Below, piece by piece: positions 8,530 to 61,073 of a DNA stretch of 64,000 nucleotides; within the stretch, counting starts at the first letter, position 1; each line of letters opens with the position of its first letter. The position numbers and the translations under genes were made by a program. The stretch is from Gelidibacter salicanalis (GTDB lineage: Bacteria > Bacteroidota > Bacteroidia > Flavobacteriales > Flavobacteriaceae): positions 1 to 64,000 of the forward strand of contig NZ_VORX01000004.1 of the NCBI RefSeq assembly GCF_007997285.1. The letters run 5' to 3'. The notes under the pieces are model-generated. The model had not been told where the DNA came from. It ran no database searches and saw nothing but the letters and a program-made list of their open reading frames with translations.

Positions 8530-8686
8530 ACTGCAAGCTGAACACTGCTTATTGAATACTGTCAACTGACTATCGCCAACCGAATACTGCCAACTGAATA
8601 CTGATTACTGAATACTGATTACTGAATACTGCCAATTGAGTACTGAATACTGCCAACTGAATACTGATTACTGAATGCCTACTGAT
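8530..8686. repeat. Degenerate 14-bp tandem repeat
   Basis: A tract built from ACTGAATACTG followed by ATT or CCA. Exact copies of the 11-mer start at 8593, 8607, 8621, 8642 and 8656, with worn copies on both sides (for example GAACACTG, GAATACTGTCA and CGAATACTGCC). The period is 14 bases except for one 21-base step. It fills the gap between rplS and trmD and ends a few bases from the trmD stop codon. Confidence 0.85.
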
Positions 8687-39407: not shown

Positions 39408-39453
39408 CTCAAACCTCAAACCTCAAACCTCAAACCTCAAACCTCAAACCTCA
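39408..39453. repeat. Heptamer tandem repeat CTCAAAC
   Basis: Six perfect CTCAAAC copies (39408-39449) plus the partial copy CTCA, ending two bases before the recN ATG. No base differs among the six copies. Confidence 0.97.
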
Positions 39454-39455
39454 CA

Positions 39456-41108
39456 ATGCTTAAAGCTCTTTCCATAAAAAATTATGCGTTAATTGATAGT
39501 CTTCAGGTGCAGTTCACTAACGGATTGACTATTATAACTGGAGAAACTGGTGCAGGAAAGTCGATTCTTTTAGGAGGCCTATCCCTTATTTTAGGAAAAC
39601 GCGCAGATTTGAGCAGTGTTAAAAATCCGTCAGAAAAATGCGTGATTGAGGCCACTTTTGATCTTGCGAACTACAATTTAAAATCGCTATTCGAAACCGA
39701 GGATTTAGATTACGAACCCCAAACCATTATCAGACGGGAAATTCTTCCTTCAGGAAAATCGAGAGCTTTTGTAAATGATACGCCCGTAAACTTAGACAGT
39801 CTTCAAGTATTAGGGGCGCATTTGTTGGATATCCATTCTCAACACCAAACGCTGCAGTTGACCAATGACGATTTTCAATTTCAGGTCATAGATGCCTTGG
39901 CTAGCAACAGCAGTTTACTCCAAGATTATGCCAAACAATTACAACGTTTTAAACGTGTAAAGACCGAATTAAAAAAACTACAAAACCAGAAAATTGAAGC
40001 CGCCAAAGCGCTGGATTATAACTTGTTTTTACTTAAAGAATTGGAAGAAGCCAATTTGGTAGACGGTGAGTTGGAAGCTCTAGAAGAAGAATACGAAACA
40101 CTCAATAACATTGAAGAAATAGGGCAGCGTTTAACCACTACTCATGAATTATTGGGCAATGTTGAAATAGGAGTCGTCACCCAGCTGACGGAAATTAAAA
40201 ATCAATTGTCTAAATTGGCGCCTTATGCTGCCGATTATAAGTCAGTGGCCGATCGTGTTGGCAGCAGTTTAATAGAATTGGACGATATATTTGCCGAAAT
40301 CGAAGCCCTTCAAGAGGCCTTAGAAGCAGATCCTAACCGATTGCAAACCGTCAATTCAAAACTTCAGGTTATTAATAACTTGTTGCAGAAACACGGGGTA
40401 GCGGAAGTTGCTGAATTGATTCAAATTAAGAATGACCTCACTGAAAATGTAGCGGTAACTGAAAATTTGGACAGCGTTATTGCCGACACAGAAAGTGAAT
40501 TGTTGACGGTAGAAAACCTGCTCAATTCTTACGCATCCAAACTACAAAAGAATCGGGCAAAGGCTATTCCAGGTTTAATTAAGCAATTGGAAGTGCTTTT
40601 GGATACTTTAGGGATGCCAAACGCGCGCTTTAATGTGGAATTGACCTTGTCTGAAACTTTTTTAAGCAACGGAAAGGATGATCTGAAGTTCCTCTTTTCT
40701 GCCAATAAGGGCGGACAGTTTAATGAACTCAAAAAAGCAGCCTCGGGGGGTGAGCTGTCGCGAATAATGCTCGCTATAAAATCCATTTTAACCAATTACA
40801 CCCACCTTCCGACGATTATGTTCGATGAGATTGACACGGGGGTTTCTGGAGAAATCTCCAATAAAATGGCGGCCATCATGCAACAAATGAGTACAACGAT
40901 GCAGGTATTTACCATTACTCACTTGCCTCAAATTGCGGCTAAAGGCGACACCCATTTTAAAGTCTTTAAGGAAGATGTCAATGAGGTGACCCAAACCCAA
41001 TTGAAACGCTTAAATCCTGAAGAACGTGTGGTTGAAATTGCACAAATGCTTGGCGGGCTCGATATGTCAAGTTCGGCCATAGAACATGCAAAGCAGTTGT
41101 TGAATTAA
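39456..41108 (+). CDS. recN: DNA repair protein RecN
   Basis: A 550-residue SMC-like ATPase of double-strand-break repair. Walker A GETGAGKS is at 29-36; a long coiled coil (about 160-370) separates it from the C-terminal ABC signature GGELSRIMLA and Walker B IMFDEIDTG. The start codon follows a six-copy heptamer repeat by two bases, which could alter translation or transcription if copy number varies. Confidence 0.97.
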   Translation: MLKALSIKNYALIDSLQVQFTNGLTIITGETGAGKSILLGGLSLILGKRADLSSVKNPSEKCVIEATFDLANYNLKSLFETEDLDYEPQTIIRREILPSGKSRAFVNDTPVNLDSLQVLGAHLLDIHSQHQTLQLTNDDFQFQVIDALASNSSLLQDYAKQLQRFKRVKTELKKLQNQKIEAAKALDYNLFLLKELEEANLVDGELEALEEEYETLNNIEEIGQRLTTTHELLGNVEIGVVTQLTEIKNQLSKLAPYAADYKSVADRVGSSLIELDDIFAEIEALQEALEADPNRLQTVNSKLQVINNLLQKHGVAEVAELIQIKNDLTENVAVTENLDSVIADTESELLTVENLLNSYASKLQKNRAKAIPGLIKQLEVLLDTLGMPNARFNVELTLSETFLSNGKDDLKFLFSANKGGQFNELKKAASGGELSRIMLAIKSILTNYTHLPTIMFDEIDTGVSGEISNKMAAIMQQMSTTMQVFTITHLPQIAAKGDTHFKVFKEDVNEVTQTQLKRLNPEERVVEIAQMLGGLDMSSSAIEHAKQLLN

Positions 41109-49330: not shown

Positions 49331-51289
49331 TTATTTCTTCTTTAATACAACCAATGAATTTTGCTGTACTTCCAATACCTTATCTATATAAACCTTAAAT
49401 ATATCATAGTATTCTGGGTCATATAAGCTTTCCTTTAAATTAAATTTAAAAAACAGCATGAGCTTTTGCTCGTTTACAGCAGCATTAAGAATGAGTTCAC
49501 CACCATTATTAGGAAGTTTAGCCACAAATGCTTTTGGCGCTTCTATAAGTTCATAGGCATCACCAAAATCAATCTGAACACTGTAAAGATAAGACTTCTT
49601 ATAACCAAAATCTATAGGGTAGGTGCGCTGTTGGAGTTGAAAAGGATTTTTCTTAAAAAATGAATAAATGAAAGGATTTAGATACACCATTGTGCTGTTG
49701 GTGTTGCTATTGGTCAGTTCAATCTGATAGGTTTCCTTAAAAGCTTCAGAATTTTTGTCCGATACCAAAACTTCATGGTCCGAAATTGTTATTTCAGACT
49801 GGCGGTCTGCACTATGGTTGATGTAGGCTTGGGGATTGGCAAAATAATCTTTCTTTTTTTGAAGTGCTTCATAACCCAAATGAGTCGCCTTTACAGTGCC
49901 GTTAACGCTATTCTCATCAACTTTCAAATCGACTTGATACTGAATTTGGGTCGCTACATTTGCTTCAATTGGTACCCACGTGCTGCCCTTGTCAAAATCT
50001 AATAAACGACCATACTGATTTAAACATTTAAATGGCAATTCTCCAAAACTTAAATAAGGATCCGTTGCATCCAATACATACGTATGACCATCTATTTGCG
50101 CCTGAACAATTAAATAGTTAAATTCAGAAATGACCGGGAAGAGTTGGGTGGGCAACCCATTTTCTCTGGTCGACATTAATACGGGCTTGACATTAATGCC
50201 TTGTTCTTCTAAAAGGTTGTGGAGTAAAATATTTATTTCAGAGGCGTTTCCAGATTTTTCCTTAACAAGGTTCTTGACCGATACATCTGTAAACACTTTA
50301 AGTTCACCATTCCAGGTATATTGATTCTGGACATAGGAATACACCTCTTTGGCGACGGTTTTTGCATTGCCTTTATCAGATATGATCGCGGCTACCACGT
50401 CTTTCAATGACGTGCTTTTCCCAATCTGTCGGCCTAAATTGGCATCGGATCGGAGTTCGCTATCTGCATCTTTCCATGTTTTAGTGATATTGTCAATACT
50501 TCCGTCAAAACCTCTAAACACCTTAAGTTCGTATTCCAGCCTTGAGAGGTAATTCGTTTTAGCAGTCATATAATCTTCCGCTATGAAAGCAGGAACAGTC
50601 GTCATGACGTAGACGGTGTTTGCACAATCAGCAGATGCGCCATTGAAAGCGTTTAAACAGTTTTTTACAATGACAGATTCTGTTTTATCTAATTTTTGTG
50701 TGCCTACCAATTTAATATGATAATCGTAATTACCTGGAATGCTGGTATTGTATTCACTGTATAACTTTGGAATTTCGTCCTGAAATTCCCAAGGATGGTA
50801 TTTGTAGATAAAAGGCGTCTCTATAACATAACTGTAGGTAATTACAGACCCTATCTTAATATTGGGTAAGGTAAACTTTATAAGGGTGTACTGATCATTA
50901 TAGGGTTCTTCAAAAATAGCATTTTGTTTAAGTTCAGATGTTGTGATGGCCCCATTTTCTAAATTATAGGTGGTGGCGAAAATTTTAGATACTTTTTCCT
51001 TACCCTTATTATTGTTGAACAGATAAATGGTTTCCGTAGCCCAATGAAAGCCTTCTCTATTTAAAATCTTTATTTTTTTCTTGATCTCCGTTTTAAGCGT
51101 ATAGGTATCCTTATCTATATAACTATTTCCGTATTCATAGATTACCAAGGCCGCCGCAGTGGAATCATTGGCGTAAGAATTAGTAGTGATGTCGTTTCTG
51201 CTTACAGCATAAGTCTCTGCATTAAATGAGGATTGGCCGAAGGTAAGTGTAGTAAGTAGGAGAAGTAGGATAAGGTAGCGGTGATTCAT
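49331..51289 (-). CDS. DUF3857 protein with degenerate transglutaminase domain
   Basis: A 652-residue secreted protein: signal peptide (1-19, ending TFGQS), DUF3857 (about 50-230), and a transglutaminase-like domain (about 290-420). In the latter the expected catalytic Cys-His-Asp appear as Ser350, Asn391 and Asp407, so it is probably not an active enzyme. A C-terminal beta region follows. Its ATG overlaps the exonuclease stop codon (ATGA). Function unknown. Confidence 0.87.
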   Translation of the reverse strand: MNHRYLILLLLLTTLTFGQSSFNAETYAVSRNDITTNSYANDSTAAALVIYEYGNSYIDKDTYTLKTEIKKKIKILNREGFHWATETIYLFNNNKGKEKVSKIFATTYNLENGAITTSELKQNAIFEEPYNDQYTLIKFTLPNIKIGSVITYSYVIETPFIYKYHPWEFQDEIPKLYSEYNTSIPGNYDYHIKLVGTQKLDKTESVIVKNCLNAFNGASADCANTVYVMTTVPAFIAEDYMTAKTNYLSRLEYELKVFRGFDGSIDNITKTWKDADSELRSDANLGRQIGKSTSLKDVVAAIISDKGNAKTVAKEVYSYVQNQYTWNGELKVFTDVSVKNLVKEKSGNASEINILLHNLLEEQGINVKPVLMSTRENGLPTQLFPVISEFNYLIVQAQIDGHTYVLDATDPYLSFGELPFKCLNQYGRLLDFDKGSTWVPIEANVATQIQYQVDLKVDENSVNGTVKATHLGYEALQKKKDYFANPQAYINHSADRQSEITISDHEVLVSDKNSEAFKETYQIELTNSNTNSTMVYLNPFIYSFFKKNPFQLQQRTYPIDFGYKKSYLYSVQIDFGDAYELIEAPKAFVAKLPNNGGELILNAAVNEQKLMLFFKFNLKESLYDPEYYDIFKVYIDKVLEVQQNSLVVLKKK

Positions 51290-52653
51290 AAAGTAAGTTC
51301 CATACGTTTAATATGTTTATTTTTTCTTAGGTAACTCTGAATAATATGTAAGGTGTCTCTCGTGTGATCCATAGGTGTAATAATGGATTCCAATACTTTT
51401 TTGTTGGTAATTTGATAGTTGAGATTAAAGTAACCAAGTCCTTGAAATACACCATTTTCTATAAGAAGCACACTGTGTTCATCTAAAGATCTGCCTTTAT
51501 CAATTAATATAAAATCCTGTTGATCAAAACTATTGTTTATAATAATGTTTTGCACTCTACCATTATAATCTGCTGAAGGCTCTTCTTGAAAACAAGCGCC
51601 CTCGCACTCCTTAACGGCGTATTTGTAACACGCTTTCTTTGTAGTGTCCAGTCCAACTAATTTAGGGCAGAGATTGAATTTATCAATGACGTTGAGTAAA
51701 AACTGCTTGCCACTTTGGTAATTTGAAAAGGTCGTAATTGCTTTTTTTCGACCATCGGCCGCATCAACCTTTAAATTTATATACCCATTTTCATCCATAA
51801 AACTATATAAAGCATGGGTAAATAGATTTCTTCTCATGGAACGGTTAAAAGACGGTTTATTTCTTTTAATTTCTGCACTTTCTTTGAGCAAGGCTACTAA
51901 TTCGCTTCCGGTGGCCTCATGAGTTACGGCAGCAATTTGGCTTTGCATCTTTTTTGATTTCGGAGTAGTACTCGTAAAATGCTGGTTGACTCTATTTTTG
52001 ATGTTTTTACTTTTACCAATAAAGATGATTTTACCGTAACTATCGTGAAGATAATAAACGCCGGTAATGGAGGGCAAATCGTCGATAATATGCTTATGAT
52101 TGGAAGAAAGCTTATATTTTGGTTCTGCTTTAACCGCATCTTGGATGATTTGTTTATCCAGATCCTTAGCTAATAGTATTTTAAATAATTTTACGGTAGC
52201 CAAGGCATCTCCAGAGGCACGGTGTCTATCACTGACCGGAATGCCTAAAGCTCGGGTAAGTTTGCCCAGGCTATAGGAATCCTGTTCGGGCATCAGTTGT
52301 TTAGACAACTCAACCGTGCAGAGTGTTTTGCGTTCAAATTCAAAGCCCAATCGGCTAAATTCTGTGCGCAAAATCCGATAATCAAATTCAGAATTATGCG
52401 CTACGATGATGCAGTCTTCCGTAATTTCTACAATCCGCTTGGCCACCTCATAAAATTTGGGTGCCGTGCGCAGCATATTACTGTTGATGCCTGTAAGGTT
52501 AACTACAAAAGGTTGTATTTCCCGTTCCGGATTGACCAAGCTGATAAATTGATCGACTACCGTGTGCCCATCAAATTTGTAAATAGCGATTTCAGTGATG
52601 CCTTCTTCATTGAATTTTCCGCCAGTGGTTTCTATGTCTAATATTGCGTAAAT
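51286..52653 (-). CDS. DEDD exonuclease/GIY-YIG nuclease with no canonical start codon
   Basis: A protein of about 455 residues joining a DnaQ-like 3'-5' exonuclease (about 1-165) to a GIY-YIG nuclease domain (about 195-275, GVYYLHDSYGKIIFIGKS), a Cho/UvrC-like arrangement. Exo motifs: DIETTG (I), AHNSEFDYR (II), HRASGDALA (III). The reading frame is open from a TAA at 52678-52680, but no ATG, GTG or TTG lies ahead of motif I; the only plausible codon is ATT at 52651-52653 (ATT TAC GCA ATA TTA GAC). A TTG at 52539 would cut away motif I, so I extend to 52653. Coupled to the DUF3857 gene. Confidence 0.8.
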   Translation of the reverse strand: MYAILDIETTGGKFNEEGITEIAIYKFDGHTVVDQFISLVNPEREIQPFVVNLTGINSNMLRTAPKFYEVAKRIVEITEDCIIVAHNSEFDYRILRTEFSRLGFEFERKTLCTVELSKQLMPEQDSYSLGKLTRALGIPVSDRHRASGDALATVKLFKILLAKDLDKQIIQDAVKAEPKYKLSSNHKHIIDDLPSITGVYYLHDSYGKIIFIGKSKNIKNRVNQHFTSTTPKSKKMQSQIAAVTHEATGSELVALLKESAEIKRNKPSFNRSMRRNLFTHALYSFMDENGYINLKVDAADGRKKAITTFSNYQSGKQFLLNVIDKFNLCPKLVGLDTTKKACYKYAVKECEGACFQEEPSADYNGRVQNIIINNSFDQQDFILIDKGRSLDEHSVLLIENGVFQGLGYFNLNYQITNKKVLESIITPMDHTRDTLHIIQSYLRKNKHIKRMELTL

Positions 52654-56859: not shown

Positions 56860-57501
56860 TTGAAAGATACGTTTAAACATAAAGGCTTGCGTCAGCAACT
56901 TGTTGGCATTGTAAAGGATAAAGGAATTACTGATGAAAAAGTACTTAAGGCCATTGGTAAAATTCCGAGACATCTCTTTATGGATTCGAGCTTTTTAGAT
57001 CATGCGTATCAAGATAAAGCGTTTCCTATTGCTGCTGATCAAACCATTTCCCAACCCTATACTGTGGCATTTCAAACCGAACTCATGCAGGTTAAACCTG
57101 GAGACAACGTGCTTGAAATTGGTACCGGAAGTGGATACCAAACCGCAGTATTGTGTGAGTTGGGAGCGAAAGTGTTCAGTATTGAGCGCCAATTGGAACT
57201 GTTTAAAATTACCAGTAAATTTCTTCCCAAACTTGGCTACCGCCCTAAGAAACTGATTTTTGGAGATGGCTATAAAGGTTTAGTAACGGAAGCGCCTTAT
57301 GACAGCATTATTGTAACGGCCGGTGCCCCTTTTGTGCCGAAACCTCTGATGAGCCAACTGAAAGTTGGTGGCCGGTTGGTCATTCCGGTTGGCGATAAGG
57401 TGCAAACAATGACGTTATTTATCAGGAAAGGCCCTAAAGATTTTGAAAAACATGAATTTGGAGAATTCCGATTTGTGCCACTTTTAGAGGATAAAAATTA
57501 A
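56860..57501 (+). CDS. pcm: Protein-L-isoaspartate O-methyltransferase
   Basis: A 213-residue repair enzyme that methylates isoaspartyl residues using SAM. Motif I LEIGTGSGYQTAVL at about 86-99, with ISQPYTVAFQTELM before it, and VGGRLVIPVGD near the end. It starts with TTG (56860); homologs begin MKDTFKHKGLRQQL, which matches. Just downstream is the palindromic array. Confidence 0.95.
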   Translation: MKDTFKHKGLRQQLVGIVKDKGITDEKVLKAIGKIPRHLFMDSSFLDHAYQDKAFPIAADQTISQPYTVAFQTELMQVKPGDNVLEIGTGSGYQTAVLCELGAKVFSIERQLELFKITSKFLPKLGYRPKKLIFGDGYKGLVTEAPYDSIIVTAGAPFVPKPLMSQLKVGGRLVIPVGDKVQTMTLFIRKGPKDFEKHEFGEFRFVPLLEDKN

Positions 57502-57510
57502 TCACGCCTT

Positions 57511-57650
57511 TGTCAGTTCGAGTGTTTTGATCAGCGTCTGAAAGAACGCTGGTCAAAATGTATCGAGAACGGTTGTTAGATTTTGGCTGTTATACGCTTC
57601 TCGATACTTTTTTCAATCACTGCCGTGCTTGAAAAACACTCGAAGTGACA
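57511..57650. repeat. Palindromic element copy 1
   Basis: First copy. Its hairpin has GATCAGCGT against ACGCTGGTC (a T-G wobble), unlike the later copies, so it seems older or diverged. Confidence 0.9.
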
Positions 57651-57662
57651 GCGAGATCATTT

Positions 57663-57802
57663 TGTCAGTTCGAGTGTTTTGAGCAGCGTCTGAAAGAACG
57701 CTGGTCAAAATGTATCGAGAACCGTTTTTAATTCTTTTTATAAATAAGCTTCTCGATAATTTTTTCAACCACTACCATATTTGAAAAACACTCGAAGTGA
57801 CA
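57663..57802. repeat. Palindromic element copy 2
   Basis: Second copy. The loop of the TATCGAGAA hairpin is replaced by unrelated AT-rich bases, while both arms of the stems are intact. Confidence 0.9.
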
Positions 57803-57814
57803 GCGAGATCATTT

Positions 57815-57954
57815 TGTCAGTTCGAGTGTTTTGAGCAGCGCCTGAAAGAGCGCTGCTCAAAATGTATCGAGAACCGTGGTTCGATTTTGGCTGTTATACG
57901 CTTCTCGATACTTTTTTCAATCACTGCCGTGCTTGAAAAACACTCGAAGTGACA
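57815..57954. repeat. Palindromic element copy 3
   Basis: Third copy. First hairpin has GCGCCTGAAAGAGCGC: a C-G pair replaces the T-A pair of other copies next to the CTGAAAGA loop, keeping the stem paired. Confidence 0.9.
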
Positions 57955-57968
57955 GCGCGAGATTGTAT

Positions 57969-58108
57969 TGTCAGTTCGAGTGTTTTGAGCAGCGTCTGAA
58001 AGAACGCTGCTCAAAATGTATCGAGAACCGTGGTTCAATTTTGGCTGTTATACGCTTCTCGATACTTTTTTCAATCACTGCCGTGCTTGAAAAACACTCG
58101 AAGTGACA
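57969..58108. repeat. Palindromic element copy 4
   Basis: Fourth copy. The loop has GGTTCAATT where others have GGTTCGATT. First hairpin of the T-A type. Confidence 0.9.
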
Positions 58109-58122
58109 GCGCGAGATTGTAT

Positions 58123-58261
58123 TGTCAGTTCGAGTGTTTTAAGCAGCGCCTGAAAGAGCGCTGCTCAAAATGTATCGAGAACCGTGGTTCGATTTTGGCT
58201 GTTATACGCTTCTCGATACTTTTCTCAATCACTGCCGTGCTTGTAAACACTCGAAGTGACA
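58123..58261. repeat. Palindromic element copy 5
   Basis: Fifth copy. First hairpin of the C-G type like copy 3, with one unpaired change (TTTTAAGC). Its right end is one base shorter (TTGTAAACACTC). Confidence 0.9.
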
Positions 58262-58275
58262 GCGTAAGACTACAT

Positions 58276-58415
58276 TGTCAGTTCGAGTGTTTTGAGCAGC
58301 GTCTGAAAGAACGCTGCTCAAAATGTATCGAGAACCGTGGTTCGATTTTGGCTGTTATACGCTTCTCGATACTTTTTTCAATCACTGCCGTGATTGAAAA
58401 ACACTCGAAGTGACA
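58276..58415. repeat. Palindromic element copy 6
   Basis: Sixth copy, T-A type hairpin, right part reads GCCGTGATTG. Confidence 0.9.
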
Positions 58416-58429
58416 GAGCGAAATCATAT

Positions 58430-58568
58430 TGTCAGTTCGAGTGTTTTGAGCAGCGTCTGAAAGAACGCTGCTCAAAATGTATCGAGAACCGTGGTTCGAT
58501 TTTGGCTGTTATACGCTTCTCGATACTTTTTCAATCACTGCCGTGATTAAAAAACACTCGAAGCGACA
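58430..58568. repeat. Palindromic element copy 7
   Basis: Last copy; right end reads CACTCGAAGCGACA. Ends 25 bases before the stop codon of the DUF5686 gene. Confidence 0.9.
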
Positions 58569-58592
58569 ACAGAGTATTTGTTTAATACCGCA

Positions 58593-61073
58593 TTACTCAA
58601 TAATATTCAGAAATTTCAATCCAAAAATAACGGCATCACCTTGGTAACCATTTTGGTAGGAACGTACATAATCCACTCTTAAGAATCTGAATTTTTTAAA
58701 CCCAATATTGTCTAAGCCTATTGAAAATTCTTGATATGGTTTTTGGCGTTCTGTAGCGAAAGCATGTGCCCCAATAACCAAGTTGTAATTTAGTTTATTG
58801 AGTAAGGGCACTCGGCTTAAGAGCAAACCTTTAAAATCGTGTTCCGCGTGCATTTCTAAATAGGATGTATTTGTGCTCAATGCGTAATACGGCAGATTAT
58901 TGAATACATTCAAATAGGTGCTAGAAGTTCCCACATGGGTTTCATTGCCGTTGGGATGATAGTAATCCATAAATCCGATGTCATCTGCGTTGATAAAAGT
59001 GCCTGCTTTAATATTGTATTTAAAATCGCCTTTATTACAGACATTAAATTGTTGGGCCAGTCGTAGTTTGAGCTGATCATAATTATACTGTTGTTCTGAA
59101 GCGGCAAATCCCTTTTCGTAACCTGCATAAAGTGTGGGGAATCTACTATTAGGAATGTTCACCTTACTATCTGGGTAACTCAAATAGTCTTGGCCGAAAT
59201 TAAAACGCATATTAAAATTAAACTTTAATAGCTGATGGGTATCAAATGCCGGCACCTCAAAGGAGTAGGGCAATTGCGGATTGTTACTGGTATAAGCATC
59301 TTCTTCCTCATTAAAAAACACTTGATCTGTAGTGTTCACTAAAGCTTTACGACGTTCATAGGCCAAATTGCCATACATATTTATACCATTAGAAATTTCT
59401 TGGGAGTAGCCCACTTCTGCGAAACTCCGATCAAAAATCTTCATATAATTGTCCTCGAAAAAAAGTGAACTTACTGAATTTAATAATGGCAAAATAGGTT
59501 GGGCTTTATTAAACTGTTGTGTTTCTACACCTCCTGAAATGGATAAAAAGGGTTTGTTGATATTGTTGAACTTATATCGAAATCCTGCAGTAGCTCTTAA
59601 ACGTTCATCGGAAACGCCATATTGTAAAGTGGCATTCGCAGAGAAAAACCGTCGGTATTCATCTTGATTTCTCCGGTAGTAAAAATTTAATTTCGAATTG
59701 TAGCCTTGAACCGTATTGAATTGAAAATCTGATAACGGTGAGCTGTAGCCTATTGACCAATCTTCAAAGGAATTTCTATGACTGTAACCAAAAAGCAAAT
59801 TTTGTATTTTAAAGCTATTATTTTTTGCATCGATAGAATCGAGGTAAGGTTTAGATTCCCTAACCGTTTGAATACTATCTTTTACTAAGTAATCACTCAC
59901 TTCTTCATCCGTTAACGGCACTGGCCGGATACCTTTCCAATAAATAGAATCCTTTTTATTGGCTTCAGAAGCGAAAGAAAGAATTTCCTTTCCAAATGAT
60001 TTTTTAGTGAGTTCTGGTGAAAAATTATAATCGCTATACACGGCAGTATAACGGCCATCACCTTTAAATCCAAATAATGAATACCCAAAATCAATACCCT
60101 GTGACAGTTTTACCCACAGTTGATCTTTGTCTGAGTACGAAAAGTTTTGGGTGATGGTAATAACTTCTGCTGGCGGAATCTGGGCTTGAATTCCAGTAAT
60201 GTCCAGTGTTACTGCATAAATGGTCCACTGATTATCCACAATATAGATATGTCCAGAGAAAATGCGGTCATTCTCACGTTTCGGGATCACTTTAATTTTG
60301 TTTATCAAATTCCCTTTGTCATCATAAAACACACCTTCCAATTTGTATCTGTAATAATTGAAGGCATAATCAGCAATGGGTGAAATAATTTGATTGCCCA
60401 ATTCGATCGTATTGTTATAAAAATTGAAATCGACATCACTGGCCGTGTTAAAACTGAATCCATTATTATCGCCGCTGACTTTGGATGCTATAATTTTTTC
60501 CTTCAATTTATCTGGCCGCAGATACGCTATTTCGGAAATAGTTTCAGATAGATATAAAATGCCGGTGCGCGTAGAATCTAGTCCAACCATAAAGTCATCC
60601 AGTTCCTGACCAAAAAATTTCTCGGGAGCGTTTTTTATGCGAATTAATCCGCGCGAGTAGAAATTAGCCTTAAAAGCATTGATTTTTTCCAGATTTGATT
60701 TTCGAGAAGCGATAGCTTTTCTCATGATGATATCCGCAGGATTTTCTTCACTATTGATCACGACTTCATTTAAGGAAATCTGTTCTTCAATAAGTGTGGC
60801 ATCCAATGTATAAGGGAAAGCATTGATCTGAACTTCTTTTCTAACCGTTTTGTAGCCTAAAAACTGAAAAACTATAGTATAAGTATCCGTGGAGCTGAGG
60901 TTAAGTTCATAATAACCCTTATCATTGCTGGTGGTTCCCGTGAAGGAGTTTTCGAGATAAATATTGACAAAGGGGAGGGGTGCATTATTTTGGTCGGTAA
61001 TTCTTCCTTTTAATTGTGAAAATGCTGAAAAGCTTGTAAAAATAAGACAGAGCGTGAGTAATTTTTTTGTCAT
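58593..61073 (-). CDS. DUF5686 outer-membrane protein with carboxypeptidase-like domain
   Basis: An 826-residue protein: signal peptide (1-19, ending SAFSQ), carboxypeptidase-regulatory-like domain (about 20-95, LPFVNIYLENSFTGTTSNDKGYYELNL), then the DUF5686 beta-rich region with many aromatic, alternating strands, ending in FLNIIE. It is likely an outer-membrane barrel, but it is not a TonB receptor: the plug is missing. Function unknown. Its stop codon is 24 bases from the palindromic array. Confidence 0.88.
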   Translation of the reverse strand: MTKKLLTLCLIFTSFSAFSQLKGRITDQNNAPLPFVNIYLENSFTGTTSNDKGYYELNLSSTDTYTIVFQFLGYKTVRKEVQINAFPYTLDATLIEEQISLNEVVINSEENPADIIMRKAIASRKSNLEKINAFKANFYSRGLIRIKNAPEKFFGQELDDFMVGLDSTRTGILYLSETISEIAYLRPDKLKEKIIASKVSGDNNGFSFNTASDVDFNFYNNTIELGNQIISPIADYAFNYYRYKLEGVFYDDKGNLINKIKVIPKRENDRIFSGHIYIVDNQWTIYAVTLDITGIQAQIPPAEVITITQNFSYSDKDQLWVKLSQGIDFGYSLFGFKGDGRYTAVYSDYNFSPELTKKSFGKEILSFASEANKKDSIYWKGIRPVPLTDEEVSDYLVKDSIQTVRESKPYLDSIDAKNNSFKIQNLLFGYSHRNSFEDWSIGYSSPLSDFQFNTVQGYNSKLNFYYRRNQDEYRRFFSANATLQYGVSDERLRATAGFRYKFNNINKPFLSISGGVETQQFNKAQPILPLLNSVSSLFFEDNYMKIFDRSFAEVGYSQEISNGINMYGNLAYERRKALVNTTDQVFFNEEEDAYTSNNPQLPYSFEVPAFDTHQLLKFNFNMRFNFGQDYLSYPDSKVNIPNSRFPTLYAGYEKGFAASEQQYNYDQLKLRLAQQFNVCNKGDFKYNIKAGTFINADDIGFMDYYHPNGNETHVGTSSTYLNVFNNLPYYALSTNTSYLEMHAEHDFKGLLLSRVPLLNKLNYNLVIGAHAFATERQKPYQEFSIGLDNIGFKKFRFLRVDYVRSYQNGYQGDAVIFGLKFLNIIE

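Follow-up and report, generated by a model that had tools for sequence, protein, structure and literature searches.

A tandem array of palindromic units in Gelidibacter salicanalis, probably a gene-less form of a REP-like element linked to GIY-YIG nucleases

Between the 3′ ends of two convergent genes, the genome of Gelidibacter salicanalis carries a tandem array of long palindromic units, which raises the question of what kind of element this is and how it multiplied. The window that we analysed is the whole stretch of 64,000 nucleotides in which this array lies. An earlier note on the window had proposed a MITE-type or REP-like element that multiplied in place, a nucleoid or condensin site, or a bidirectional terminator, and this interpretation is partly supported by our analysis. 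We estimate a probability of about two in three that the array is the product of local amplification of a REP-like, GIY-YIG-linked mobile element in a gene-less (non-autonomous) form. The complete form of this element would consist of a half unit, a single-domain GIY-YIG nuclease gene and an inverted half unit, and the half units would be part of a broad palindrome group with (C/T)GTC, in most cases GTCA, at the start and then a stem of 4 bp or more that varies.

The array at 57511–58568 comprises seven units of 139–140 bp each with a period of 152–154 bp, where the precise number of copies depends on the assembly, as the genome is a draft of 24 contigs (Table 1). The linkers between the units measure 12, 12, 14, 14, 14 and 14 bp. 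Tandem Repeats Finder places the array at 57510–58568 (period 154, 6.9 copies, 91% matches) and agrees, as do the unit coordinates, with the seven copies of about 140 bp and the linkers of 12–14 bp described before. The position between the 3′ ends of pcm and the DUF5686 gene is confirmed by the Pfam matches and by the gene ends: pcm ends at 57501 and the DUF5686 gene at 58593, so that 9 and 24 bases, respectively, separate the array from the genes. The array is also rightly held not to be CRISPR, with repeats of 139–140 bp and linkers of 12–14 bp, some of them recurring, and no unique spacers.

Table 1. Positions of the repeat units, their neighbouring genes and the further arrays of the same family (window coordinates unless a contig of the same genome is named)
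Feature	Position	Strand	Remarks
Array unit 1	57511..57650	+	140 bp
Array unit 2	57663..57802	+	140 bp; most diverged, 87% to unit 4
Array unit 3	57815..57954	+	140 bp
Array unit 4	57969..58108	+	140 bp; folded over 57971–58115
Array unit 5	58123..58261	+	139 bp
Array unit 6	58276..58415	+	140 bp
Array unit 7	58430..58568	+	139 bp; right-end outer motif with one change
Left half unit of unit 4	57969..58027	+	G type: GTCAGTTCGAGTG, hairpin A, GTATCGAGAA
Central loop of unit 4	58028..58055	+	GIY-YIG gene at the equivalent place in two units of the C15 array, same genome
Right half unit of unit 4	58056..58108	-	C type, inverted: GTCACTTCGAGTG, hairpin C, GTATCGAGAA
pcm, protein-L-isoaspartate methyltransferase	56860..57501	+	PF01135, E 1.2e-56
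DUF5686 gene, convergent with pcm	58593..61073	-	PF18939, E 7.4e-263
Array	C15, 33.3–36.8 kb		16 left ends; outer-motif search
Array	C15, 287.6–288.2 kb		2; outer-motif search
Array	C18, 52.4–53.2 kb		six 124-bp right-hand copies; outer-motif search
Array	C23, 18.5–19.7 kb		10 left ends; outer-motif search

From left to right, a typical unit consists of TGTCAGTTCGAGTG, hairpin A, TGTATCGAGAACC, the central loop, GCTTCTCGATACT, hairpin C and CACTCGAAGTGACA. At its conserved ends, the second half approximates the reverse complement of the first, and each unit is thus an inverted pair of half units, which follow the formula GTCA[G/C]TTCGAGTG-hairpin-GTATCGAGAA[C/G]. Of the unit structure described in the earlier note, with terminal repeats and three stems, the repeat ends stand; the remainder is better described as a central loop flanked by two half units in inverted orientation, each of which has a hairpin of its own. 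The outer motif CACTCGAANTGACA has 15 matches in the window when up to two mismatches are allowed, compared to 0.95 expected from shuffles, and 14 of these are the 14 unit ends. Read from the outside in, all 14 outer ends of the seven units carry TGTC and 13 carry TGTCA. Each half unit has an outer stem of 4 bp (GTTC or CTTC), which is followed, after a mismatch, by another hairpin. Terminal inverted repeats, a criterion for MITEs, are present, with 13 paired outer columns in which 98.2% of the cells are paired among 17 distinct units. The folding energy of the unit at 57971–58115 is -62 kcal/mol compared to -36 kcal/mol for shuffles (z -7.2).

The window array is one of several in its own genome. 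In the 3.78 Mb we found 81 matches (43+38) to CACTCGAANTGACA with at most one mismatch, whereas the reversed control gave 3, and 75 of the 81 fall in five arrays, namely the window array and four more of the same family. The conserved ends are common to all five, while hairpins and linkers differ. The largest of the additional arrays, with 16 left ends on contig C15, contains an identical ORF of 107 amino acids in the central loop of two units; in its 96-residue form, the product is a single-domain GIY-YIG nuclease according to Pfam (E 2.5e-16). Inverted GTCA palindromes thus surround a single-domain GIY-YIG gene in 2 of the 16 units of this array, as against 14 units without a gene. The statement in the earlier note that there is no transposase therefore holds for the window but not for the genome, where the nuclease gene lies inside another array. 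The units in the window are without a gene, and their sequence places them in the proposed group of GIY-YIG-linked GTCA palindromes. The window itself contains another GIY-YIG domain, at 51286–52539, which shares a frame of 417 amino acids with an RNase_T exonuclease domain and is not a single-domain gene.

Half units also occur in other arrangements. At locus L033 (2430–3240), an array repeats mainly the right-hand half unit with a period of 124 bp. At L030 (3630–4200), L031 (2234–2450) and L035 (1534–1805), half units or inner motifs stand in direct tandem, about 52–55 or 105 bp apart, which indicates that half units can multiply without an inverted partner.

A search of 149 host-family genomes with the C15 nuclease gave relatives in 105; the 30 best loci were fetched, of which 27 could be placed and 3 could not. 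Half units with TTCGAGTG/TATCGAGA are here termed class A. Class-A motifs lie within a fixed limit of 200 bp from the gene in 20 of the 27 placed relatives, one of which (L094) has class-B-like repeats, and the exact order O I gene I O is present in 15 of the 27. In the flanks that were inspected, the half unit upstream of the gene tends to read GTCAC...GAAG and the downstream one GTCAG...GAAC. Across genomes, 20 of the 149 have a close class-A nuclease (E≤1e-35, from sequence alone). Five or more class-A feet were found in 15 of these 20 genomes compared to 15 of the 129 without such a nuclease, and at least one foot in 19 of 20 compared to 46 of 129, where the counts include the feet beside the gene and the cut-off of five was picked post hoc. 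Within the genus, a close class-A nuclease is present in the window genome (G000) and in G007; G008 has units and no close class-A nuclease.

The type of repeat follows the nuclease clade. In a tree of 161 nucleases, the repeat labels ('none' included) need 24 changes, compared to a mean of 80 for shuffled labels, where the labels come from loose regular expressions with ties scored as none. Nine of 94 loci, to which no frame had been assigned, and 4 proteins shorter than 70 amino acids were left out of the tree. Class A forms one side of a branch with a support of only 33, and classes T, B and E each fall into more than one clade (14, 4 and 5 changes, respectively). Furthermore, the window's own genome contains nucleases of classes A, B and T, each adjoining its own repeat. 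Host kinship alone can thus not explain the match between repeat and nuclease.

Outside class A, small GIY-YIG genes are often bracketed by other palindromes, for example GTCAGGCTGAGCGCAGTCGAAGCC, GTCACCCTGAACTTGTTTCAGGGTC and GTCATTGCGAGGAGCGAAGCGACGAAGCAATC, and many of these palindromes begin with GTCA and then a stem of four variable bases. A crude label with four types left 28 of 86 same-family loci typeless on both flanks. In some of these, such as L144 and L146, no GTCA palindrome was seen by eye; as many others show one, we turned to a general test for GTCA. The same-family set consists of 90 loci minus four on cut contigs (L072, L078, L084 and L091), and 60 host-family loci were picked down the list of the nuclease search, not at random. 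GTCA with a stem of 4 bp and one or more framework marks is present on both flanks at 45 of the 86 loci and on either flank at 70, whereas seven other 4-mers are found on both flanks at 0–1 of 86. Far flanks have GTCA palindromes on both sides at 3 of 86 loci. Without the framework marks, GTCA still ranks first of the 256 4-mers (38/86; runner-up 15). The script detected no GTCA palindrome on either flank at 16 of the 86 loci. Control ORFs have GTCA palindromes on both sides in 0 of 54 cases in the window and in 2 of 91 cases among neighbours. Longer exact stems weaken the signal in the same-family set: with 5 bp GTCA is not among the top 4-mers, with 6 bp it is merely joint first (21 flanks, tied with AGTG; both flanks 6/86, tied with CGTC) and with 7 bp it is sixth. 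The strand asymmetry in the near flanks is modest, with GTCA on 137 of 171 flanks and TGAC on 97.

As the 4-bp stem was chosen after seeing the sequences, the same-family set is exploratory and a set of loci from many phyla is the better test. This set comprises the best 80 of at least 567 loci obtained with a type-T query, which therefore say little about other types; two of the 80 were dropped for flanks shorter than 130 bases. GTCA is again the top of the 256 4-mers, with both flanks at 49 of 78 loci and 24 for the runner-up, and it is absent from at least one flank at 29 of 78. In the far flanks, where 14 of the 80 loci were dropped, the count is 1 of 66. GTCA palindromes in the opposite reading occur on both flanks at 21 of 86 loci in the same-family set and at 23 of 78 in the many-phyla set, where they tie with the commonest AT-rich 4-mer for the top; this is partly because several copies sit side by side. 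In all these counts, the loci are not phylogenetically independent. The record titles of the many-phyla set name Bacteroidota, Pseudomonadota, cyanobacteria, Omnitrophota, Patescibacteria and others, and many are metagenome bins. Taken together, small GIY-YIG genes are associated with inverted GTCA palindromes in many phyla. In one record titled as a Limnohabitans MAG (L170), the nuclease is 77% identical to the flavobacterial query, which may be a binning error.

We also compared the same loci within the genus. At the window locus, no unit is present in six of nine genomes (G001–G006), one in G008, 12 in G007 and seven in G000; G008 has, in addition to its full unit, a truncated half unit. 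Units are 92% identical within an array and 75% identical between G000 and G007, and the linkers are specific to each species. The likeness within arrays and the distinct linkers show that amplification or homogenisation of the array took place separately in each lineage, and thus at this locus in two species. This pattern gives good support to the idea that an element of MITE or REP-like type multiplied in place. A target-site duplication was not identified at the window locus, as by eye the empty-site spacers of G001–G006 are too diverged. At another locus, a type-T GIY-YIG gene is present in G000, G006 and G008, and none was found within 1.3–1.5 kb downstream in the other six genomes. A third case is the L042 spacer (L263–L271), which we take to be that between trpA and trpB. 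Here, G000 and G008 have a palindrome on either side of a GIY-YIG gene, and the other seven genomes lack the gene and by eye have lone palindromes at the start of the spacer; these palindromes have the foot TTCA or TTAC, not GTCA. Such elements are thus present in some genomes and absent from others at the same loci within the genus.

The lone palindromes of the L042 spacer lend themselves to a different explanation, in which the palindromes are older and either passive or useful to the host, small GIY-YIG genes home into palindrome pairs as safe landing sites, and the arrays lengthened independently of the nuclease, through ordinary replication slippage or unequal crossing-over. Slippage is known to alter the copy number of tandem repeats. 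That units without a gene outnumber those with one (14 to 2 in the C15 array), and that 15 of 129 genomes have at least five feet and no close class-A nuclease, would also fit. However, repeat class tracks nuclease clade, and across genomes the nuclease and the repeat tend to be present together; use as a common landing site would not require as much. Furthermore, the flanks of the gene are two whole inverted palindromes and not the halves of one. We thus consider homing into older palindromes rather unlikely, and a GIY-YIG-linked mobile element the better explanation.

The array could also be kept for a host function at the border of pcm and the DUF5686 gene, for example as a bidirectional terminator or as a stabiliser of mRNA 3′ ends. 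The short distances to the two convergent genes and the strong folding are consistent with this, as is the pairing in hairpin A, which is kept between species: 5 of its 13 pairs show changes on both sides (20 units, 17 distinct, from three species). For the whole structure, changes on both sides amount to 20 cells compared to 5.7 in shuffles and 0 to 6 in slid controls, a number that relatedness can inflate; further pair types, with 14 compared to 13.1, are not above shuffles. On the other hand, six of the nine genomes of the genus have no unit at the locus, and one or two hairpins would suffice for such a role. The proposed terminator found no support in a consensus scan of 57300–58800 for intrinsic terminators (GC-rich stem and T run), which gave 0 sites where 1.5 are expected, although such a scan can miss terminators. 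An Rfam scan gave 20 weak matches, none above the gathering score of its family. We regard a host function as the reason for the array as improbable.

REPINs, or BIMEs, are intergenic inverted pairs of palindromes with GTAG ends, and their partner RAYT is an HUH Y1 transposase whose gene is flanked by the repeat. The elements described here resemble this system in the inverted palindrome pairs, in a specific partner gene flanked by the repeat and in their intergenic location, and one Y1_Tnp gene is present in the genome. It is nevertheless very improbable that an IS200-like Y1 transposase moves the units, since the gene inside units encodes a GIY-YIG nuclease instead of an HUH Y1 enzyme and the ends are TGTC(A) instead of GTAG. 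That sole Y1_Tnp gene was rejected as a RAYT partner: it has one motif match with three mismatches in 3.3 kb and is otherwise unflanked. An array of sites for nucleoid proteins, condensin or another candidate DNA-binding protein would fit the regular spacing of near-identical palindromes and is hardly credible given that unit and linker sequences vary across arrays and species and that presence is patchy. An assembly artefact with fewer real copies, conceivable for near-identical units in a draft of 24 contigs, can be set aside with near certainty, as the units carry distinguishing changes (80.7–98.6% identity) and the assembly of another species has 12 units at the same locus.

The closest described repeats are those of the CGTC-tagged REP superfamily (Di Nocera, De Gregorio, Rocco 2013, PMC3733652), which are short, mainly intergenic palindromes from five phyla including Bacteroidetes. 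They carry the tag CGTC, in many cases TGTC or CCTC, at one end and occur as oppositely oriented pairs (PMC3733652). The four described families have stems of 8–9 bp that almost always start with AT, loops of mostly 4–5 bases and mostly a CCA tail, and no dedicated transposase was found (PMC3733652). The window units share the TGTC tag and the inverted pairing. However, their half units have a 4-bp outer stem and a further inner hairpin, and no CCA tail was found after GTATCGAGAA[C/G] in the window units. As stem, loop and tail are not shared, we do not file them in the four described families. Azospirillum lipoferum is named as a CGTC species (PMC3733652), and on a plasmid of this species (L272, 1486–1779) the CGTC REP CGTCATCCCCGCGAAGGCGGGGATCCA lies on both sides of a GIY-YIG gene between sufB and sufC. 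This is one of eight plasmid loci that were hand-picked from 33 records and scored, without a control, by a looser test (GTC and a 5-bp stem); the script found convincing tagged palindromes on both sides in seven. At the eighth (L273), the second match of the script appears to be a chance hit, and inspection by eye reveals a diverged copy. On plasmid p1 of Planktothrix agardhii (L278, 1501–1785), a GIY-YIG gene with TGTC-tagged palindromes lies between an MmeI-type restriction gene and the DISARM gene drmA. Prokaryotic satellites (PMC6749651) are likewise long tandem DNA repeats in prokaryote genomes; palindromic units of the kind in the window and partner enzymes are not treated in the part of that paper available to us. 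Among the literature matches listed, no paper links GIY-YIG proteins with REP-like repeats; subscription journals and bioRxiv were outside the scope of this search, and absence from print is unproven.

The nuclease is similar to known small proteins. Its structure model has a mean pLDDT of 87. By sequence, the nearest proteins are the small GIY-YIG proteins 1zg2 (E 7e-21) and 1ywl (E 4e-16) of the UPF0213 group, and these proteins are also the top matches in a fold search, with 1zg2 as the sole match at E <0.001. Weak fold matches are the branched-DNA nuclease Slx1 (E about 0.1) and the GIY-YIG domain of UvrC (0.5). To our knowledge, UPF0213 proteins have no link to repeats, and their function is not established. 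Two tyrosines, a glycine, an arginine and a glutamate, which we take to be the GIY-YIG active site, do not vary in either of two alignments (16 and 17 chosen sequences).

The association between nuclease and palindromes is strong at the level of sequence, and the mechanism is our proposal. We infer that the nuclease cuts and mobilises the element. It would recognise its own palindrome by foot and stem, perhaps as a cruciform or as a single-stranded hairpin, and would nick or cut it. Repair could then copy the element to new intergenic sites, and when breaks in an existing copy are repaired out of register, an array may expand, contract and homogenise. A parallel is SegB of phage T6, a GIY-YIG homing endonuclease that promotes tandem segmental amplification via breaks and homologous recombination (PMC13096335). 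By analogy, this makes the step from repair to array length plausible. GIY-YIG homing endonucleases such as SegB belong to the same nuclease superfamily as the C15 nuclease, whereas the palindromes on either side of the C15 gene are also present in places where there is no such gene.

In a wider form of this proposal, single-domain GIY-YIG nucleases would be the dedicated mobilising enzymes of very widespread (C/T)GTC-tagged palindromes and thus a second, independently evolved REP system. The variable 4-bp stem under the constant GTCA foot would provide the specificity for the repeat, and nuclease breaks in repeats would drive tandem amplification, as in the window array. We consider this wider form evenly balanced between right and wrong. 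REP-like palindromes are common bacterial repeats, and the GTAG class has a known partner enzyme; the clade-specific link suggests the nuclease of about 95 residues as a concrete candidate partner for the CGTC class. If true, a likely role would emerge for many proteins whose sole annotation is 'GIY-YIG nuclease family protein', and the elements would be a natural system in which one enzyme spreads and tandemly amplifies non-coding repeats.

Two further repeats were observed in the window. A perfect 7-bp repeat of CTCAAAC with 6.6 copies (39408–39453) lies directly before an ORF of 550 amino acids that starts at 39456 and presumably encodes RecN; changes in the copy number of this repeat could tune the translation of the ORF. 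At 8530–8676, a degenerate repeat of 7, 14 and 21 bp is built around GAATACT and ACTGCCA.
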